DNA of 64,000 bases, taken from the NCBI RefSeq assembly GCF_007993035.1, contig NZ_VOOS01000003.1, positions 213,501 to 277,500 of the forward strand, read 5' to 3'. The stretch is from Vicingus serpentipes (lineage in GTDB: Bacteria > Bacteroidota > Bacteroidia > Flavobacteriales_E > Vicingaceae). Made by a program: the position numbers and the translations under genes. The notes under the pieces are model-generated. The model searched no databases and was not told the origin of the DNA. It saw only the letters and a program-made list of their open reading frames with translations. Shown one piece after another: positions 5,774-14,723 of this stretch (position 1 is its first letter; each line of letters starts with the position of its first letter).

Positions 5774-6427
5774 ATGTTCAAGTTATATACGTTTCTACTA
5801 ATTTTTATTGTTTTTCTTTATTTAAAATCGTTTTCTCAAGAAAATATAAAATATCAAATTGGAGATTTTGCTCATGGAGGAATCATCTTTTGGTTAGATG
5901 AGACGGGTGAACATGGTTTAGTTTGTACTAAATCGGATATTTCAGAATCAACTCAATGGGACACTGAATTGAAATATATTGGTGAACCAATGAATTCCCC
6001 TGAAAGAAATACAAAATCTGTTGCAATTCTTGATGGAATTTATGCTGGGAAAGAGAATACTCAATCAATCATTAAATTTGTAGGTAAAAGCGATATACCT
6101 TTCGCAGCACTTATTTGTGATGAATATGAATTATTAATAGATTCAATTTTGTATGATGATTGGTATTTGCCTTCGAGAGAAGAATTAAATATAATGTATT
6201 TAAATCGTACAATTATTAATGAAACTGCTTTACAAAAAGGTGGTGAATCTTTAAACAAGAATAGGTATTGGAGTTCTACAGATGTTGATTGTGGCGAGGA
6301 CCCGTATAATAAATTTGACAATGTTCATCAAGCTTATGGTCATGACTTTTCGTTAGGAAGCAAAAAGTACCAATTACCCAGTAAAAAATATATGCTTTAT
6401 TCTGTAAGGGCAATCCGATCTTTTTAG
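5774..6427 (+). CDS. Secreted DUF1566 domain protein
   Basis: A 217-residue protein with a signal peptide (about 1-21, ending SFSQ). The mature part matches the DUF1566 (Lcl C-terminal-like) pattern: GDFAHGGIIFWLDETGEHG near the start, WYLPSREELNIMY in the middle, RYWSSTD, and VRAIRSF at the end. Family members are exported proteins with a C-type-lectin-like core and no settled function. It is inserted between ftsY and rimO, genes that are normally close neighbours in Bacteroidota. The nearby sequence shows no mobile-element remnants. Confidence 0.8.
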   Translation: MFKLYTFLLIFIVFLYLKSFSQENIKYQIGDFAHGGIIFWLDETGEHGLVCTKSDISESTQWDTELKYIGEPMNSPERNTKSVAILDGIYAGKENTQSIIKFVGKSDIPFAALICDEYELLIDSILYDDWYLPSREELNIMYLNRTIINETALQKGGESLNKNRYWSSTDVDCGEDPYNKFDNVHQAYGHDFSLGSKKYQLPSKKYMLYSVRAIRSF

Positions 6428-6458
6428 ATAATTTTAAGCTTTTATAAAATCACTCATC

Positions 6459-7775
6459 TTGAAAACAAAAACCTTAAAAAATAATAAAGTTAATGTCATC
6501 ACTTTGGGTTGCTCTAAGAATCTTTTTGATTCTGAAGTAACCATGACTCAATTAAAAGCTAATGGCTACGAGGTAGAGCATGAAGCTCAGCAAGATGATT
6601 CTGAAATTGTAATCATAAATACTTGTGGTTTTATAGATAATGCAAAGGAAGAATCTATAAATACAATACTTAGATATGCCGAAGCAAAAAAAGATGGACA
6701 AGTTGATAAATTGTATGTTACAGGTTGTTTATCAGAAAGATATAAGGAAGGTTTAGAGGATGAAATAAAAGAGGTGGATGCTTTTTTTGGAACAAGAGAA
6801 TTACCTAAGTTGTTAAAAACATTAAAAGCTGATTATAAACATGAACTAGTTGGTGAAAGAATTATTACTACACCTAGTCATTACGCTTTTTTAAAGATAT
6901 CAGAAGGTTGTGACCGTAAATGCGCATTTTGTGCCATTCCATTAATGAGAGGAAAGCATATTTCAACACCAATAGAAGAATTGGTGTTACAAGCAAAAAA
7001 CTTAGCTAAGCAAGGAGTAAAAGAGTTGATATTAATTGCTCAAGAACTTACTTTTTATGGGTTAGATATTTATGGAGAGCGTCGTTTACCATTATTACTT
7101 CAGGAGTTGTCTAAGGTTGAAGGTGTAGAGTGGATTCGATTACATTATGCCTATCCAACAGGATTTCCTATGGAGATTATTGAGGAAATGAAAGTTAATC
7201 CAAAAGTTTGTAACTACCTTGACATTCCTTTACAGCATGCTTCTAACAATATGTTAAAAGCGATGAAAAGAGGTGCGACTCGCGAAAAAACAACTAAACT
7301 GATTAATGATATAAGAGTTTTAATTCCTGAAATTGCAATTCGAACTACTTTTATTGTTGGCTTCCCTGGAGAAACAAGAGAGGATATTGAAGAGATGAAA
7401 GAGTGGATTGCTGAAATGCAATTCGAGCGTTTAGGTGTTTTTACTTATTCTCACGAAGAAGATACAACAGCCTATGATTTAATTGATGATGTTTCAGAAA
7501 AAGATAAACAAGATAGAGCGCAAGAAGTTATGGATTTTCAACAAGGAATATCTCTTAGCTTAAATGAACAAAAAATAGGAAAAACCTTCAAAGTATTATT
7601 TGATAGAGTTGAGGGTGATTATTTTGTTGGTAGAACAGAATATGATTCTCCAGAGGTTGATAATGAAGTGCTAGTAAGTACTAAAGATAATTTTGTAAGG
7701 ATTGGAGATTTTGCAAATGTTACTATTACAGGAGCTTCTGATTTTGATTTGTATGGAGAGGTTGTAAATGAATAA
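6459..7775 (+). CDS. rimO: Ribosomal protein S12 methylthiotransferase RimO
   Basis: A 438-residue radical-SAM enzyme that methylthiolates an Asp of ribosomal protein S12. The N-terminal UPF0004 domain carries the auxiliary-cluster cysteines (LGCSKN, NTCGFID, TGCLSER). The radical-SAM cluster is CDRKCAFC (about 151-158), and a TRAM domain closes the protein (about 373-438). The start is TTG at 6459, because KTKTLKNNKVNVITLGCSKN is the usual N-terminus of flavobacterial RimO and no ATG lies upstream in frame. Its end overlaps bshC by 8 bases. Confidence 0.95.
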   Translation: MKTKTLKNNKVNVITLGCSKNLFDSEVTMTQLKANGYEVEHEAQQDDSEIVIINTCGFIDNAKEESINTILRYAEAKKDGQVDKLYVTGCLSERYKEGLEDEIKEVDAFFGTRELPKLLKTLKADYKHELVGERIITTPSHYAFLKISEGCDRKCAFCAIPLMRGKHISTPIEELVLQAKNLAKQGVKELILIAQELTFYGLDIYGERRLPLLLQELSKVEGVEWIRLHYAYPTGFPMEIIEEMKVNPKVCNYLDIPLQHASNNMLKAMKRGATREKTTKLINDIRVLIPEIAIRTTFIVGFPGETREDIEEMKEWIAEMQFERLGVFTYSHEEDTTAYDLIDDVSEKDKQDRAQEVMDFQQGISLSLNEQKIGKTFKVLFDRVEGDYFVGRTEYDSPEVDNEVLVSTKDNFVRIGDFANVTITGASDFDLYGEVVNE

Positions 7776-9361: not shown

Positions 9362-12121
9362 TTATCTAACAACAATCTTTTTACTATATATCTGATTAGC
9401 TGTTTGAATAGTTACGATATACATTCCATTGGCAATATCTAAAGGAATATTTTCATTGTTAGCAAGGATTGTTTTTATTAGTTGCCCTTGTATATTGTAA
9501 ATAGATACCGTTCCATTCTCTATGTCTCCAATTTCTATTTTTTTGGAAGTATTATTATAATAAATCATGTTTGATAAATCAGTACTTAAGGCAATTGTAT
9601 TAGAATATGAATATTCACCATTAAAATCAGTTTGTTTTAATCGGTAATAATTGATAGGGTTTGTTATTCTGTCATCAGTAAACTGATAGTATTGATTTGT
9701 AGAACTATTACCTGCTCCATTTATTATTCCTATCTCATTAAAGTTAAAACCATCTTCTGCTCTTTCTAAAGTGAAATAATCGTTATTTATTTCAGTAGTA
9801 GTTGTCCATTCTAATAAATTACCATACACTGTTTTTTTGCCTTTAAAGAATAACAGTTTAATAGGTAATACTTCAGTTGTAACATTACAATCAGCTAAAA
9901 CTCCAACAGAAACAGCATTACCGCCTGGTGAAGTTGATGAAAAAGTTGCGAATTCACCATCGCCTTGATTACTAGAAGTATAAGAATAAGTATAAGAGTA
10001 AGTATTTCCATCAGTTGCAGTAATATCTAGATCGAAATCTTTCGTACCACTTGAATTCCCGAAATTACCACTATCATGCCAAGTGTCTCCAGTTGAAGCA
10101 GCTGATTGTCCAAAAACTACATAAATAGGACCTTGCCCGCATAAACCTGACCAATCAAAATTTACTTCTGCACAGATACTTGAAGATACTAATAACATAG
10201 TTGAATTCGGAGGTAGAGTTTGTCCGTTAGCATCATAAAATACAGTCCCACAAGCAGCACTATCATTCATTGTAGTGATAGTTGAATTATTGCTAACTAC
10301 TGTACCAAGAAGGTCGTAAGCAGGAAAAGCCGGATAGATTAAATCAAAATTAGCTGAATTCACTAAAACGCTATTTGCTCCTGTGTTAGCAAAAACAATT
10401 TCAGACCTTCCTTCACCACCACATCCTACAGGGTCGCAACCATTAAATAATACACTTGTAATATGTGGGGGAGCACAATGTCCATCTGTTAGATTGATTG
10501 TAAAAGTTGAAGATTCACTACCAATAACATATGGGTTTGATGAAATTACTCTTATTTTATAGTTTGCTCCGTTTGGTGTGCCTCCTGGTATAGTAAAGTT
10601 TATTGTTCCACTATTAGCAGTAGAAACTAATGTTCCAATGTTAATTGGAGATCCAAAATTTCCTGAACCATCTGATAATTGAGCGGTGTATACGTTACCA
10701 GCACCAAAAGTATCTGTAGAGGTGAAAGCAACTGTTCCATTATCACTTACTGCACATTGAACACTAAAAGGACTTCCTGAAACTGATCCAGTAGTAATTG
10801 TATTTGTAGGTGGTGTTGATCCACAAATACTAACATCATCAATCCATAATTCTCCAGCGCGGGTTGTTGAAAATTCAAATAAGCCTCCAGTATATTGTCC
10901 AGAGGTATAATCTATATCAGTTTGAGTTCCTGCTGAAGTTTCTCCAGATCCTGAATCATAGTATAATTGCCAAATACCAGCACTGGTACGAGTAATTCTT
11001 ATACAAACATCATCAGTACTATTCCAATCATAAGCACTAGTTATTATTGCAGTATAAACACCAGCATCAACTCTATATAAAGTAATTAAATCAGAGGTTC
11101 CAGTTAGATTAACACCAACTGTATAACCGTTAGGAGTGCCAAAAAAATCTGAGCCATCAGAAATTAAATAATAACCAAAATAATTACTTCCAGAAGGGTC
11201 CCAATTTCCATTTCGCATACAAAAAGACCATTCAAAATCACTAGTAGTTAAATCTTGAACACCAAGGTCGTGAAAAATATAACTTGTACCTGATACTCCA
11301 GATAAGTTATGATTTAGTTCTCCTGAAGATATGGCCCAATCAGTAGTGTTCGACCATTGGGATAAGGTTGCACTAAAATCATCTGAAAAAATAGGAGTAC
11401 AACTAACTGGGCAATTCCATTGAGCATATAACGTAATGTCAGCAGAAAAATCATAAGTTGCTCCATCAGAATAAGATGTGCCGCTCCCGTTTGAAACTGT
11501 ATTCCATTCAATAAAAGTACAACCAGTTTGTGTAAATGAATTGGTTGTTAAAGCAGTTGAACTACTAGCAGTTTGATCGCTCATAGATCCACCATCACTT
11601 CCATTTCCGTTAAAGTTCACAGTGTAATTGCTTGATCCACTACAAACACCGGTTGAAATAGAAACATCATCGAGAGCTATATTGCCACTAGTCTTATTTG
11701 TGTAAATAAACTTTAAATATCTAGAGTTGCAAGACAATGTTTCTGTTTCTGAATTACTTGTATTTGATATGTTTATATAATTATTTACATCTGAATAAGT
11801 AATTCCATCTATTGACTCTTGAACAGTAAATGTTCCAGTAATGTTTGATCCTGAGCTTGGATTACCTTTAATACAAAAAGTTAAATCTGAAGCAGGACCA
11901 TTATAATTAACGATGATGTAATCGCCCGAAGTATTAAATTGTGCTGATGATGAATTAGATGCGCCACAAACATCAGTTCCATAAGTAGATGTACCTGATT
12001 TAGACCAGCCAGTTGGCTCCGCTCCTGACCATGTATCTCTGGAAACCGGAATTGTAGCTTGTGAATGTAAATTCCTGCAGATAAGAAGAACAATACTTAA
12101 TAGTATTACTCGAAAAAGCAT
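9362..12121 (-). CDS. Large secreted protein, T9SS type A cargo
   Basis: A 919-residue exported protein with a signal peptide (1-21). Domains by eye: an N-terminal discoidin/F5-8-like beta region (about 25-157), one InlB/Listeria-Bacteroides B-repeat (about 166-236, ending ITLYAQW), a LamG-like jelly roll (about 243-434), an Ig-like stretch (about 440-545), a domain shared with the neighbouring 743-residue protein (about 553-735), a FTLERAEDG/YYRLKQTDFNGEYSYS module, and a T9SS type A sorting domain (about 848-919, IYNIQGQLIKT...GMYIVTI...KKIVVR). It is probably a surface adhesin or matrix protein. The start codon follows a structured leader by 9 bases. No enzyme motif was recognised. Confidence 0.85.
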   Translation of the reverse strand: MLFRVILLSIVLLICRNLHSQATIPVSRDTWSGAEPTGWSKSGTSTYGTDVCGASNSSSAQFNTSGDYIIVNYNGPASDLTFCIKGNPSSGSNITGTFTVQESIDGITYSDVNNYINISNTSNSETETLSCNSRYLKFIYTNKTSGNIALDDVSISTGVCSGSSNYTVNFNGNGSDGGSMSDQTASSSTALTTNSFTQTGCTFIEWNTVSNGSGTSYSDGATYDFSADITLYAQWNCPVSCTPIFSDDFSATLSQWSNTTDWAISSGELNHNLSGVSGTSYIFHDLGVQDLTTSDFEWSFCMRNGNWDPSGSNYFGYYLISDGSDFFGTPNGYTVGVNLTGTSDLITLYRVDAGVYTAIITSAYDWNSTDDVCIRITRTSAGIWQLYYDSGSGETSAGTQTDIDYTSGQYTGGLFEFSTTRAGELWIDDVSICGSTPPTNTITTGSVSGSPFSVQCAVSDNGTVAFTSTDTFGAGNVYTAQLSDGSGNFGSPINIGTLVSTANSGTINFTIPGGTPNGANYKIRVISSNPYVIGSESSTFTINLTDGHCAPPHITSVLFNGCDPVGCGGEGRSEIVFANTGANSVLVNSANFDLIYPAFPAYDLLGTVVSNNSTITTMNDSAACGTVFYDANGQTLPPNSTMLLVSSSICAEVNFDWSGLCGQGPIYVVFGQSAASTGDTWHDSGNFGNSSGTKDFDLDITATDGNTYSYTYSYTSSNQGDGEFATFSSTSPGGNAVSVGVLADCNVTTEVLPIKLLFFKGKKTVYGNLLEWTTTTEINNDYFTLERAEDGFNFNEIGIINGAGNSSTNQYYQFTDDRITNPINYYRLKQTDFNGEYSYSNTIALSTDLSNMIYYNNTSKKIEIGDIENGTVSIYNIQGQLIKTILANNENIPLDIANGMYIVTIQTANQIYSKKIVVR

Positions 12122-12130
12122 TTGTATTCT

Positions 12131-12188
12131 GTAATAATTATAAAATGGTTTCGGGAATTTCCCTGTAGGTGATCATTTTATAATTTAC
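12131..12188 (-). promoter_or_regulatory. Structured leader element, copy 1
   Basis: Read on the minus strand, an 11-base-pair perfect stem (12184-12174 with 12147-12137) plus 4 further pairs (12188-12185 with 12134-12131, two-base bulge) encloses a 26-base core, 12173-12148. The core starts ATCACCTA, contains GGGAAATTCCC and ends GAAAC. It matches 23 of 26 bases of the core at 14644-14669, while the stem arms are unrelated in sequence. Nine bases separate the stem from the ATG at 12121. The likely transcription start (about 12187) coincides with the first stem base. Probable cis-acting RNA; ligand or partner unknown. Confidence 0.75.
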
Positions 12189-12193
12189 AGAAG

Positions 12194-12228
12194 TAAAGTT
12201 ACTTAAATTAGGTGTTTAATTTGTTAAG
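12194..12228 (-). promoter_or_regulatory. Likely promoter of the 919-residue cargo gene
   Basis: On the minus strand CTTAACA (12228-12222) lies 20 bases before TAACTTTA (12201-12194), which matches TAnnTTTG in 7 of 8 positions. The same CTTAACA box occurs 21 bases before the -7 box of the upstream neighbour gene (14688-14723). Transcription would begin at or beside the first base of the hairpin leader. Confidence 0.55.
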
Positions 12229-12252
12229 GATAGGTTAAGCAGCTATTAATAT

Positions 12253-12273
12253 TTTTCAACAAAATGTTGAAAA
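12253..12273. other. Short perfect hairpin / inverted repeat
   Basis: TTTTCAACA (12253-12261) and TGTTGAAAA (12265-12273) form 9 pairs around a 3-base loop. It lies between the terminator of the upstream gene and the putative promoter of the 919-residue protein gene. It lacks a following T run on the minus strand beyond AAAAATATT, so it could be an operator site rather than a terminator. Confidence 0.4.
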
Positions 12274-12308
12274 CGAATTAAATATGAAATTTAGTTTACT
12301 AAAAAAAG

Positions 12309-12354
12309 AAAAATTGGTATTAAAAGAATAATTAAAATTTTAATACCAATTTTT
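12309..12354 (-). terminator. Terminator of the 743-residue cargo gene
   Basis: AAAAATTGGTATTAAAA (12309-12325) and TTTTAATACCAATTTTT (12338-12354) form a perfect 17-base-pair stem with a 12-base loop. On the minus strand the stem runs into TTTTTCTTTTTT. It lies about 33 bases past the stop codon at 12387 and indicates that the two tandem cargo genes are separate transcripts. Confidence 0.85.
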
Positions 12355-12386
12355 GAAAATCTTGAACAGTTTTAATTTTAATCATT

Positions 12387-14618
12387 TTATTTTAATAAAG
12401 TTATATGCCCTGTTAAAGTTTCTGTTAATTCATTATTCCAAGTAATTGTAGAAATATAAAAATAAGTTCCATCAGCAACTAGTGTTCCTTCGTAATAGCC
12501 ATCCCAACTTCCATCAATAGCATCCCAACTATATAATTCTTTTCCCCATCTATTAAATATTTTACAAGTTAAGCTAGAAATATTTTCTCCTTTAATTGTA
12601 AAAACGTCATTTGTAAAGTCGTTATTTGGAGTAAATACATTTGGTATGTAAACGGTATTTGGCCTTTCAAAAAGAAGTGTTTCTTGATAAGTGTCTTGAC
12701 AGTTATTATTTGAAGCAGTTAAAGTTACAGTGTATTCTCCATTCTCTATGTACGAAGTTGAAGGGTTTTCATTTAAACTTAATTGACCATTACCAAAATT
12801 CCAGCTAAAATTTGTAGCAGAAAGGGAAGATTCATTTGTAAAATTGATAATTGATGGAAGTTCACTGCCATAAAAATAATCAGAAGAAAATAATGCTGTA
12901 ATGCTATTGTCTAAAATTGTTTTGTAGGCTGTATCTGATCCGCATTCATTGGTTACAGATAAAAAGACATTAGCGGCTGAGCTAAAGTTTTGGGTTATAG
13001 AATTGCTACCAGTTGACCATAAATAATTTCCATTTCCACCAGCAGTTAATTGAACAACATTGTTACAAATTATGGTATCTCCAGTAATAGAAGCAACAGG
13101 TAAAGTTCCAGGAGAAACTATTAATGATTCGCTATCAGAACCGCAAGAGTTTGTAGATGAAACAGAATAGGTACCAATTGAACTTACGGTAATACTTGAC
13201 GTAGTCTCGGAAGTATTCCATAAATAATTGTCTGATCCGCTGGCTATTAATGTAATGGTTTCACCATTACAAATAACATTGGTAGCTGAAGAACTACTTA
13301 ATGAAATTGTTGGTGGAAATAATACGGTGATTGAAATACTTTGAGAATCGCGATAGCAATTGTTATATCCAATTACATAATAATCACCAGTATTACTAAC
13401 ACTTTGAGAGGTTGAATTAGCGTTGTTGAACCAGGTGTAATTTGGGGCTCCGCTAGCTGTTAAAACTGCTGAATTACCATTGCAAATAGTAGTATTTGGC
13501 GTTGTTAAGTTTAGATTAATTGTTGGTGCATCAGTAATTGTTATATTATCAGAAGCACTTCCACAAGAAGAGTTACTAGTTACACTATAATTTCCTGAAG
13601 TTAAAACATAAATTGAATTAGAAGTACTTCCTGTGTTCCAGGTGTAATTTCCTGAACCACTTGCAGTAAGTAAAATACTATCACCACTACAAAGCTCTGT
13701 TGAGGATGAGGTAATCGTTGCTATAGAAGTATTTCCTCCAACTTCTACTAGAACACTATCTTTTGTTGGCTGACCACAATTTGTAGCACCTTCGTAATAA
13801 ATATAGAAATCACTATTGTCAGTTGAAACAGAATAATAACTTGTAGTTGAATTAGAGTTTGAAGAAAAAGTCCCGTTACCTCCAATCCATGTTGTTGAAG
13901 AAAAGCTTCCATTTATAGTTGCTGATAAATCAATTGTATCTCCAGGACATATAGTAAAACCAGTTTCATTAATATCAATTGTATTAATTACTATTGGGGC
14001 GGTACATCCATTATTAATATATGTAGGAGAACCAGGCCAAGTATAATCAACTGCAGCCCCGTCACCTCCAGTCAAATCAGTAGGTAAATAAGATACAACA
14101 TCTGAACAACCTGCGGGAGAGCTAAAACTAATAGTTAAAGTTTTTACTGATGAAGAGGAATTAGAAAAATGACCAAGTGTATTCCCTGGGCATTGAAAAA
14201 TTGCATAAACGGTATCATTTAAATTTGCAAATGAATTTGCAGAAACATCAAATAATGTGCTCGTAAATAAAATAACAGAAGCTCCTGCGGGAAGAATATT
14301 TGCAGTTGGTTCTAATATTACTCCGCACCCAGTAATTGTACTATTTAAACTTGCTACTTTAGATGCTGTTGTTCCATTTTTACAAATTCCATCGTAAGAG
14401 TTACTAGTTGTTGGCCAACTGACATTCATGTCATTATAATTTAAATTGTTTGGTCCAACTGTAAAACGTACCATTTCGTTGTCAGATTCAGGAGAACCAC
14501 AGGCATCTACAAGAATGCTTTCAATTTCAAAACAAGAACTAGGAGTTTGAGATTTAACAGTTGTAATTGTAAAAACAACAAAAGTAGCTATAAGGCATAC
14601 TCTATTAAAAAATAACAT
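12387..14618 (-). CDS. Secreted Ig/PKD protein, T9SS type B cargo
   Basis: A 743-residue exported protein with a signal peptide (1-24, ending VKSQ). Residues about 33-200 form a Cys-containing domain also seen at 553-735 of the downstream neighbour. Five Ig-like repeats of about 55-70 residues follow (about 220-293, 304-363, 374-432, 445-503, 512-568), each with C.G then LTASG...NY.W and a second Cys. A PKD-like domain occupies about 575-651 (FSWNFGNG, GEYTVTLTASN). The end (655-743) is a T9SS type B (CHU_C) domain: IPNVFTPNNDFTNDVF, IFNRWGKELY, DGTYFYI. This is the class of protein associated with adhesion and gliding. The start codon lies 12 bases after a structured leader. Confidence 0.88.
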   Translation of the reverse strand: MLFFNRVCLIATFVVFTITTVKSQTPSSCFEIESILVDACGSPESDNEMVRFTVGPNNLNYNDMNVSWPTTSNSYDGICKNGTTASKVASLNSTITGCGVILEPTANILPAGASVILFTSTLFDVSANSFANLNDTVYAIFQCPGNTLGHFSNSSSSVKTLTISFSSPAGCSDVVSYLPTDLTGGDGAAVDYTWPGSPTYINNGCTAPIVINTIDINETGFTICPGDTIDLSATINGSFSSTTWIGGNGTFSSNSNSTTSYYSVSTDNSDFYIYYEGATNCGQPTKDSVLVEVGGNTSIATITSSSTELCSGDSILLTASGSGNYTWNTGSTSNSIYVLTSGNYSVTSNSSCGSASDNITITDAPTINLNLTTPNTTICNGNSAVLTASGAPNYTWFNNANSTSQSVSNTGDYYVIGYNNCYRDSQSISITVLFPPTISLSSSSATNVICNGETITLIASGSDNYLWNTSETTSSITVSSIGTYSVSSTNSCGSDSESLIVSPGTLPVASITGDTIICNNVVQLTAGGNGNYLWSTGSNSITQNFSSAANVFLSVTNECGSDTAYKTILDNSITALFSSDYFYGSELPSIINFTNESSLSATNFSWNFGNGQLSLNENPSTSYIENGEYTVTLTASNNNCQDTYQETLLFERPNTVYIPNVFTPNNDFTNDVFTIKGENISSLTCKIFNRWGKELYSWDAIDGSWDGYYEGTLVADGTYFYISTITWNNELTETLTGHITLLK

Positions 14619-14630
14619 GTTTTAGCGCAA

Positions 14631-14683
14631 CAAAAACAAAGTGGTTTCAGGAATTTCCATCTAGGTGATCACGTTTGTTTTTC
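14631..14683 (-). promoter_or_regulatory. Structured leader element, copy 2
   Basis: On the minus strand 14682-14674 (AAAAACAAA) pairs with 14640-14632 (TTTGTTTTT), and GTG (14672-14670) pairs with CAC (14643-14641), with one bulged C. They enclose a 26-base core, 14669-14644, beginning ATCACCTA, containing GGAAATTCC and ending GAAAC. The core differs from copy 1 (12148-12173) at only 3 positions, whereas the arms have changed in sequence but kept pairing (including A-T to G-C at the closing pairs). The ATG at 14618 follows 12 bases after the stem. Same geometry as copy 1. Confidence 0.75.
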
Positions 14684-14687
14684 AATG

Positions 14688-14723
14688 CAAATTTAAGAAG
14701 ATTAATACTTTATGAATGTTAAG
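14688..14723 (-). promoter_or_regulatory. Likely promoter of the 743-residue cargo gene
   Basis: Minus-strand TAAATTTG (14695-14688) is a perfect TAnnTTTG -7 box. CTTAACA (14723-14717) lies 21 bases upstream, taking the place of the usual TTG. The predicted start, about 14682, is the first base of the hairpin leader. Confidence 0.6.

Follow-up and report, generated by a model that had tools for sequence, protein, structure and literature searches.

Two neighbouring genes on the minus strand of the Vicingus serpentipes DNA analysed here are each preceded by a nearly identical short sequence, which raises the question of whether this sequence belongs to a structured leader RNA and, if so, how widely that RNA occurs and what it does. 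The window is the whole 64,000-nucleotide stretch analysed (contig NZ_VOOS01000003.1, positions 213,501 to 277,500), and all coordinates without a locus label refer to it.

Two copies of the element in the window

The features of the two copies and their genes are as follows.

12135..12186, minus strand: copy 1 of the leader RNA, made up of the P1 stem, the conserved internal loop and the P2 hairpin, within the 5' UTR of the gene for the 919-aa T9SS cargo protein; 72.3 bits with model R2, genome E 1e-15
12148..12173, minus strand: conserved core of copy 1, ATCACCTACAGGGAAATTCCCGAAAC; exact pattern match
12194..12201, minus strand: -7 promoter box of copy 1, TAACTTTA; from the sequence and the consensus TAnnTTTG (PMC9723704)
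9362..12121, minus strand: gene behind copy 1; its 919-aa secreted product has a signal peptide, a List_Bact repeat and a T9SS type A sorting domain
14631..14682, minus strand: copy 2 of the leader RNA, within the 5' UTR of the gene for the 743-aa T9SS cargo protein; 60.1 bits with model R2, E 3e-12
14644..14669, minus strand: conserved core of copy 2, ATCACCTAGATGGAAATTCCTGAAAC; exact pattern match
14688..14695, minus strand: -7 promoter box of copy 2, TAAATTTG; from the sequence and the consensus TAnnTTTG (PMC9723704)
12387..14618, minus strand: gene behind copy 2, a 743-aa secreted protein with N-terminus CFEIESILVDACGSPE, PKD and CHU_C T9SS type B sorting domain
12309..12354, minus strand: 17-bp perfect inverted repeat followed by a T run, past the stop codon of the 743-aa gene; read from the sequence

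The two cores are identical at 23 of 26 positions and the arms flanking each are complementary, in agreement with a preliminary description of this locus. When the 2.92 Mb genome was searched with the core pattern at up to three mismatches, these two copies were the only matches, and the reversed pattern, used as a control, gave none. Directly upstream of each copy lies a -7 box of the form TAnnTTT(G/A), with predicted transcription starts near 12189 for copy 1 and near 14683 for copy 2, in keeping with the earlier proposal that both copies begin where transcription is expected to start. The predicted leaders are about 68 nt and about 65 nt long, respectively, and in both the ATG lies 12-13 nt beyond the end of the modelled stem. 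When copy 1 is folded in isolation, starting at the 5' end predicted for it, its stability greatly exceeds that of shuffled sequences (z -4.0). The fold of copy 2 is unremarkable on its own (z -1.2, with 24 of 200 shuffles equally stable), and the case for copy 2 therefore rests on comparative data.

Judged by their sorting domains, both genes encode cargo of type IX secretion (T9SS). The 743-aa product matches CHU_C at 1.5e-18, while the Por_Secre_tail match of the 919-aa product scores 22.8 bits in the protein search, just below the Pfam cut-off of 27, and 29.1 bits in a six-frame search, above that cut-off. The inverted repeat at 12309-12354 is likely a terminator, and the two genes are likely separate transcripts.

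The gene behind copy 1 occupies a syntenic site between guaA and bshC at which the leader and signal peptide are constant and the N-terminal passenger domain varies among species (window 9362-12121; L041 8421-11057; L042 8552-10561; L043 near 5767; L044 7272-9302; further loci, g9, are L048, L050, L052, L076 and L077). Compared with the protein of L041, residues 1-410 of the copy-1 protein are unmatched and residues 411-916 are 66% identical. Judged on sequence grounds, this site looks like passenger swapping behind a fixed leader.

Extent of the family

In two genomes of the same genus, the core precedes the corresponding genes, with arms that differ yet pair. A first covariance model, made from the window copies and these same-genus relatives (four sequences), was run on 46 members of the taxonomic family and found 18 strong members of the element in three genera, and the broader models R2 and R3 reached other families of the class. 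A threshold of E 0.01 per genome was applied, the E-values of the models being rough. At this threshold a search of 395 genomes of the class gave 49 matches, with about 4 expected by chance. Carriers made up 30 of these 395 class genomes, 19 of 36 genomes sampled in one order, 38 of 87 in another and 12 of 199 in a third. Altogether, the covariance searches of Bacteroidota added more than 110 members to the two window copies; these come from about 85-90 genomes and represent nine or more family-level groups of the class. A sample spanning the phylum gave almost nothing, with one marginal match (G657, E 0.002) outside the groups already found. All matches were gathered regardless of the genes nearby. 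The preliminary description had suggested a covariance search for further copies with paired variable arms; many were found, nearly all of them at the starts of T9SS cargo genes.

Searches of the window and 20 further loci against Rfam 15 gave no match at the gathering threshold, Flavo-1 included, and relaxed thresholds (E up to 10 or 5) gave matches at chance level only. The preliminary description had likewise named no riboswitch or leader family with this core. The element is also not described in the literature searched, which left subscription journals outside its coverage. With neither an Rfam family nor a description in that literature, we regard the element as a new family among structured leader RNAs.

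Several candidates were rejected along the way. Exact-pattern matches in Hinthialibacteria (L038) and in two viral contigs (L039 and L040) proved to be unrelated sequence with unpaired arms, and four more pattern matches in viral contigs were rejected because the stem was unpaired. Weak matches in G010, G012:C112, G038, G039 and G004, with unpaired arms and a coding-like character, were discarded as chance. Separately, a look-alike, TTGATYACCTGTAGGCAATTTTCCCAAACTAA, is conserved in L057 (G016; 6425-6456) and L058 (G027; 6619-6650) downstream of a TAACTTTG box; its arms are unpaired, and it was excluded from the member count.

Structure and covariation

All members of a 114-member alignment are built alike: the outer stem, P1, stays paired although its sequence varies, and between it and an inner hairpin, P2, lies a strictly conserved asymmetric internal loop. 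This loop reads GA-NN-A-(Y)-CCUANA on its 5' side and (G)AAAC on its 3' side, so that the full consensus runs from a P1 5' arm ending in RUG or GCG through A-N-N-A-(Y)-CC-U-A-N-A, P2 and (G)AAAC to a P1 3' arm beginning with C. G13, A25, the CC and the U are essentially invariant, AAAC is present in at least 109 members, and more than 12 loop positions in all are nearly invariant across many families. P2 varies among members in both sequence and length, and its apical loop is variable, with none conserved. The G-C pair closing P1 is invariant; farther out, the pairs change freely but remain paired.

The preliminary description had read the element as a structured RNA kept by selection, and the covariation strongly favours this. 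Double-sided changes are seen at 12 of 16 pairs in an initial set of 16 members and at 15 of 16 in the 114-member set, and in neither case did any of 500 shuffles match the score, the shuffle tests correcting only partly for relatedness among members. Double-sided changes fill 266 cells in the 114-member alignment versus 121 in shuffles, and sliding the partners by 1-3 columns lowers the covariation score from 0.335 to 0.06-0.12. An alignment-free arm swap gave the same picture, with a member's own P1 arms pairing at 6.36 of 8 positions versus 5.24 of 8 for swapped arms (the maximum of 1000 shuffles being 5.54), and this also holds on members outside model training, of which about 83 are new and the rest are re-fetched training loci. 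The P2 region averages -4.5 kcal/mol versus -2.0 kcal/mol for dinucleotide shuffles, and RNAalifold recovered both P1 and P2 unaided from the first alignment. The inner five pairs of P1 contain 68 G-U or U-G cells versus 4 A-C or C-A cells, an excess which places the structure in RNA and on the sense strand of the gene. The fold is thus conserved with compensatory changes, as in structured leaders, and we are close to certain that this is a real structured RNA family.

One further likeness was considered and set aside. Both window cores contain GATCACCT, which equals what we take to be the 3' tail of 16S rRNA adjoining the anti-Shine-Dalgarno. Two variable positions and an extra C in most members break this likeness; it is probably a coincidence, and other members lack it.

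Position in the transcript

The sigma-A -7 box TAnnTTTG occupies -12 to -5 relative to the transcription start (PMC9723704). In 69 of the 114 members a box of the form TAnnTTT(G/A) begins 8-20 nt upstream of P1, while equal windows farther upstream hold 19, 13, 4 and 5 such boxes. Among members with a box in the 8-20 nt window, the spacing from box to P1 is 13.7 +/- 3.0 nt, as opposed to 43.9 +/- 44.1 nt from P1 to the AUG, with start-codon distances ranging from about 0 to more than 150 nt. The tight spacing to the box and the loose spacing to the AUG indicate that the element is anchored to the predicted 5' end of the mRNA and not to the start codon. As in ompA-type stem-loops, then, a paired structure lies at the 5' end of the message, as predicted from the -7 box spacing. 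In gene clusters (L190, L184, L175, L041, L042 and L044), each gene has its own leader copy. Two complete tandem leaders occur in one 5' UTR in L174 (6428-6569), L179 (501-643) and L242 (435-589).

No terminator-like hairpins were found in the spacers between leader and gene, and a terminator-based switch was accordingly rejected. Folding of the leaders revealed no consistent change in predicted start-codon accessibility, which blocking of P1 hardly alters (0.52 versus 0.51), and masking of the start codon was likewise rejected as a general mechanism. Direct control of ribosome access, which the preliminary description had offered as one mode of action, is therefore not supported as a general mechanism, given the lack of a consistent accessibility change and the wide range of start-codon distances.

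Downstream genes

Members lie in 5' UTRs, in sense orientation, before a consistent class of genes. The 79 complete downstream proteins gave 44 Por_Secre_tail and 22 CHU_C matches with Pfam, while NCBIfam assigned 44 T9SS domains to type A and 18 to type B, so that about 62-66 of the 79 carry a T9SS sorting domain, a few possibly matching both types. The association with T9SS cargo genes seen in the window thus extends to the family. A signal-peptide-like N-terminus is present in 105 of 111 downstream proteins. The cargo is of several kinds, including lamin-tail-domain, PKD, SprB repeat, M43 peptidase or peptidase-like, F5/8 and PLD-like proteins. Once signal peptides and sorting domains are trimmed off, BLAST still sorts the proteins into 13 groups, including a large one linked by repeat domains in common. 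Gene types such as the CFEIESILVDACG type and the lamin-tail type are found behind the leader again in distant families. A further seven downstream proteins have ends resembling those of outer-membrane barrels, and the ones scanned match the TonB plug weakly. The suggestion that the element could regulate surface adhesins is too narrow, the cargo being diverse and outer-membrane barrels being present as well.

The 2.9 Mb window genome has about 105 sorting-domain sites (75 Por_Secre_tail and 37 CHU_C matches, partly overlapping), and the element marks 2 of these roughly 105 cargo genes. As most of them lack it, the element is not a general T9SS signal. Nor is it strictly limited to T9SS cargo, since a family of barrel-like outer-membrane proteins of about 850 aa carries the leader without a T9SS domain (L218, L220, L229, L235, L240, L247, L214 and relatives). 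No ribosomal protein gene, of the kind that follows a ribosomal-protein leader, was seen among the downstream genes.

A few leaders stand before other genes. In L200 (547-1734) the downstream gene is lipoprotein-like and strongly matches the thiol-activated cytolysin family (Pfam, 1.6e-34). Leaders also precede ordinary cytoplasmic genes, namely deoC in L204 (1051-1133) and L206 (6512-6593) and a dihydropyrimidinase gene in L199 (6509-6579); these are possibly false positives or cases of missed small upstream genes.

Proposed function and alternative explanations

The fold, the sense strand, the placement next to the promoter box at the 5' end and the link with T9SS cargo are results of the computation; that the element regulates in cis, that a factor recognises its loop and that mRNA stability or translation is affected is what we infer. 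During promoter escape, the first 50-90 nt of the transcript would fold into P1, the internal loop and P2, with the stems free to vary as long as pairing holds and the loop fixed. A trans-acting factor, most likely an RNA-binding protein, would read the internal loop and thereby set mRNA lifetime, translation or both for selected type IX-secreted and outer-membrane proteins. Acting at the 5' end, the factor could shield the mRNA from decay or expose it, or it could deliver the mRNA to ribosomes. A long downstream mRNA can gain stability from a 5' hairpin or from a protein bound near the 5' end (PMC3997798), and the 5' UTRs of outer-membrane protein genes are targets of RRM proteins in Bacteroides (PMC11697453). 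Loop recognition by a trans-acting factor is the simplest reading in view of three facts: conservation is higher in the loop than in the stems, the position of the element follows the 5' end, and the leaders contain neither a terminator nor a start-site switch. Action in cis on the downstream gene is very probable. We lean slightly towards the whole proposal, a new 5'-terminal cis-regulatory RNA family whose loop is read by a trans-acting factor controlling lifetime or translation; for action specifically via a protein that reads the loop, the chances fall a little short of even. A further reading, somewhat unlikely, is a signal sensor specific to genes for secreted proteins: its loop would sense a ligand or factor reporting the status of the envelope or of type IX export, and a small group of surface proteins would be turned on or off accordingly.

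The conserved loop would be just as fitting for an aptamer that binds a small molecule. The element could then be a new riboswitch class, with the internal loop that separates P1 from P2 as its ligand-binding aptamer, responding for example to a second messenger or an envelope metabolite and changing the expression of surface proteins. A small, strictly conserved loop between two variable helices, the free length of P2 and the tandem copies in at least three leaders are all consistent with this, and other phyla have c-di-GMP riboswitches that control surface adhesins (PMC4933901, PMC4759541). However, no expression platform is apparent (the spacers hold no terminators and can be near zero in length, and predicted accessibility barely moves when P1 is blocked, 0.52 versus 0.51), and the targets have a secretion route in common, not a metabolite. 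We consider a riboswitch unlikely, and the label premature, since no expression platform was found. The predicted location at the 5' terminus of the mRNA also fits a passive stabiliser in which the terminal stem blocks 5'-end-dependent decay and the loop is unbound; 5' hairpins are described as stabilising mRNAs for surface or secreted proteins in other bacteria, namely ompA, papA and aprE (PMC3997798 and references therein). Such a stabiliser would need no conserved loop, yet more than 12 loop positions are nearly invariant across families, and the element sits on a small subset of cargo genes only, which makes this reading improbable.

The same predicted location at the very start of the transcript could allow the nascent RNA to load an antitermination or elongation factor (a LoaP/UpxY-type NusG paralogue) onto RNA polymerase, as a leader hairpin recruits LoaP in Bacillus (PMC12691694). 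The variable P2 loop and the lack of leader terminators do not correspond to a dfn-type UNCG hairpin followed by a leader terminator, however, and the targets include many single genes about 900 bp long, so that we judge such loading quite improbable. The last alternative, already disfavoured, is a DNA-level element (a protein binding site, a recombination site or a mobile repeat) that merely resembles a leader. The constant leader and signal peptide with differing passengers at one locus could suggest recombination, but the 68 G-U versus 4 A-C cells on the sense strand and the compensatory changes point to RNA, and the element has one orientation relative to genes, no array context and only two copies in the window genome; we give this reading hardly any weight.

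Comparison with known systems

To our knowledge, post-transcriptional control of T9SS cargo is almost unexplored, the controls known being transcriptional. Bacteroidota lack Shine-Dalgarno control, and few RNA regulators are known in them, so that the element adds an RNA family with strong covariation to a phylum poor in such regulators. The family probably controls the amount of surface proteins made. Its 50-90-nt leader offers a testable handle and a bait for the partner, and the covariance model lists candidate regulated genes in any Bacteroidota genome. If the element does sense envelope or export status, a protein secretion route would be coupled to an RNA switch in much of the class.

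Functionally, the element is filed with structured leader RNAs, as a new family. Like the stem-loops of ompA, papA and aprE, it is a 5'-terminal hairpin on mRNAs for surface or secreted proteins, but those stem-loops need no conserved internal loop, whereas here the loop is the most conserved part. With the c-di-GMP riboswitches before adhesin genes it shares the form of a small conserved 5' UTR RNA, sometimes in tandem; those riboswitches belong to a different phylum, and the present element has neither an Rfam match nor a visible expression platform. The LoaP dfn leader is likewise a leader hairpin and recruits a factor, as proposed for the present element, but it has a UNCG tetraloop and a leader terminator, both absent here. 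We know of no structured loop target for RbpB of Bacteroides, which prefers AU-rich stretches and is thus a candidate only for the kind of partner involved. RbpB/RRM regulation is nevertheless similar in that RNA-binding proteins act on the 5' UTRs of outer-membrane protein mRNAs (PMC11697453). Flavo-1 (RF01705) is also a structured RNA motif confined to Bacteroidota, with no function assigned, but it occurs in either orientation and often outside transcripts (PMC9723704), whereas the present element stands at gene starts in one orientation.
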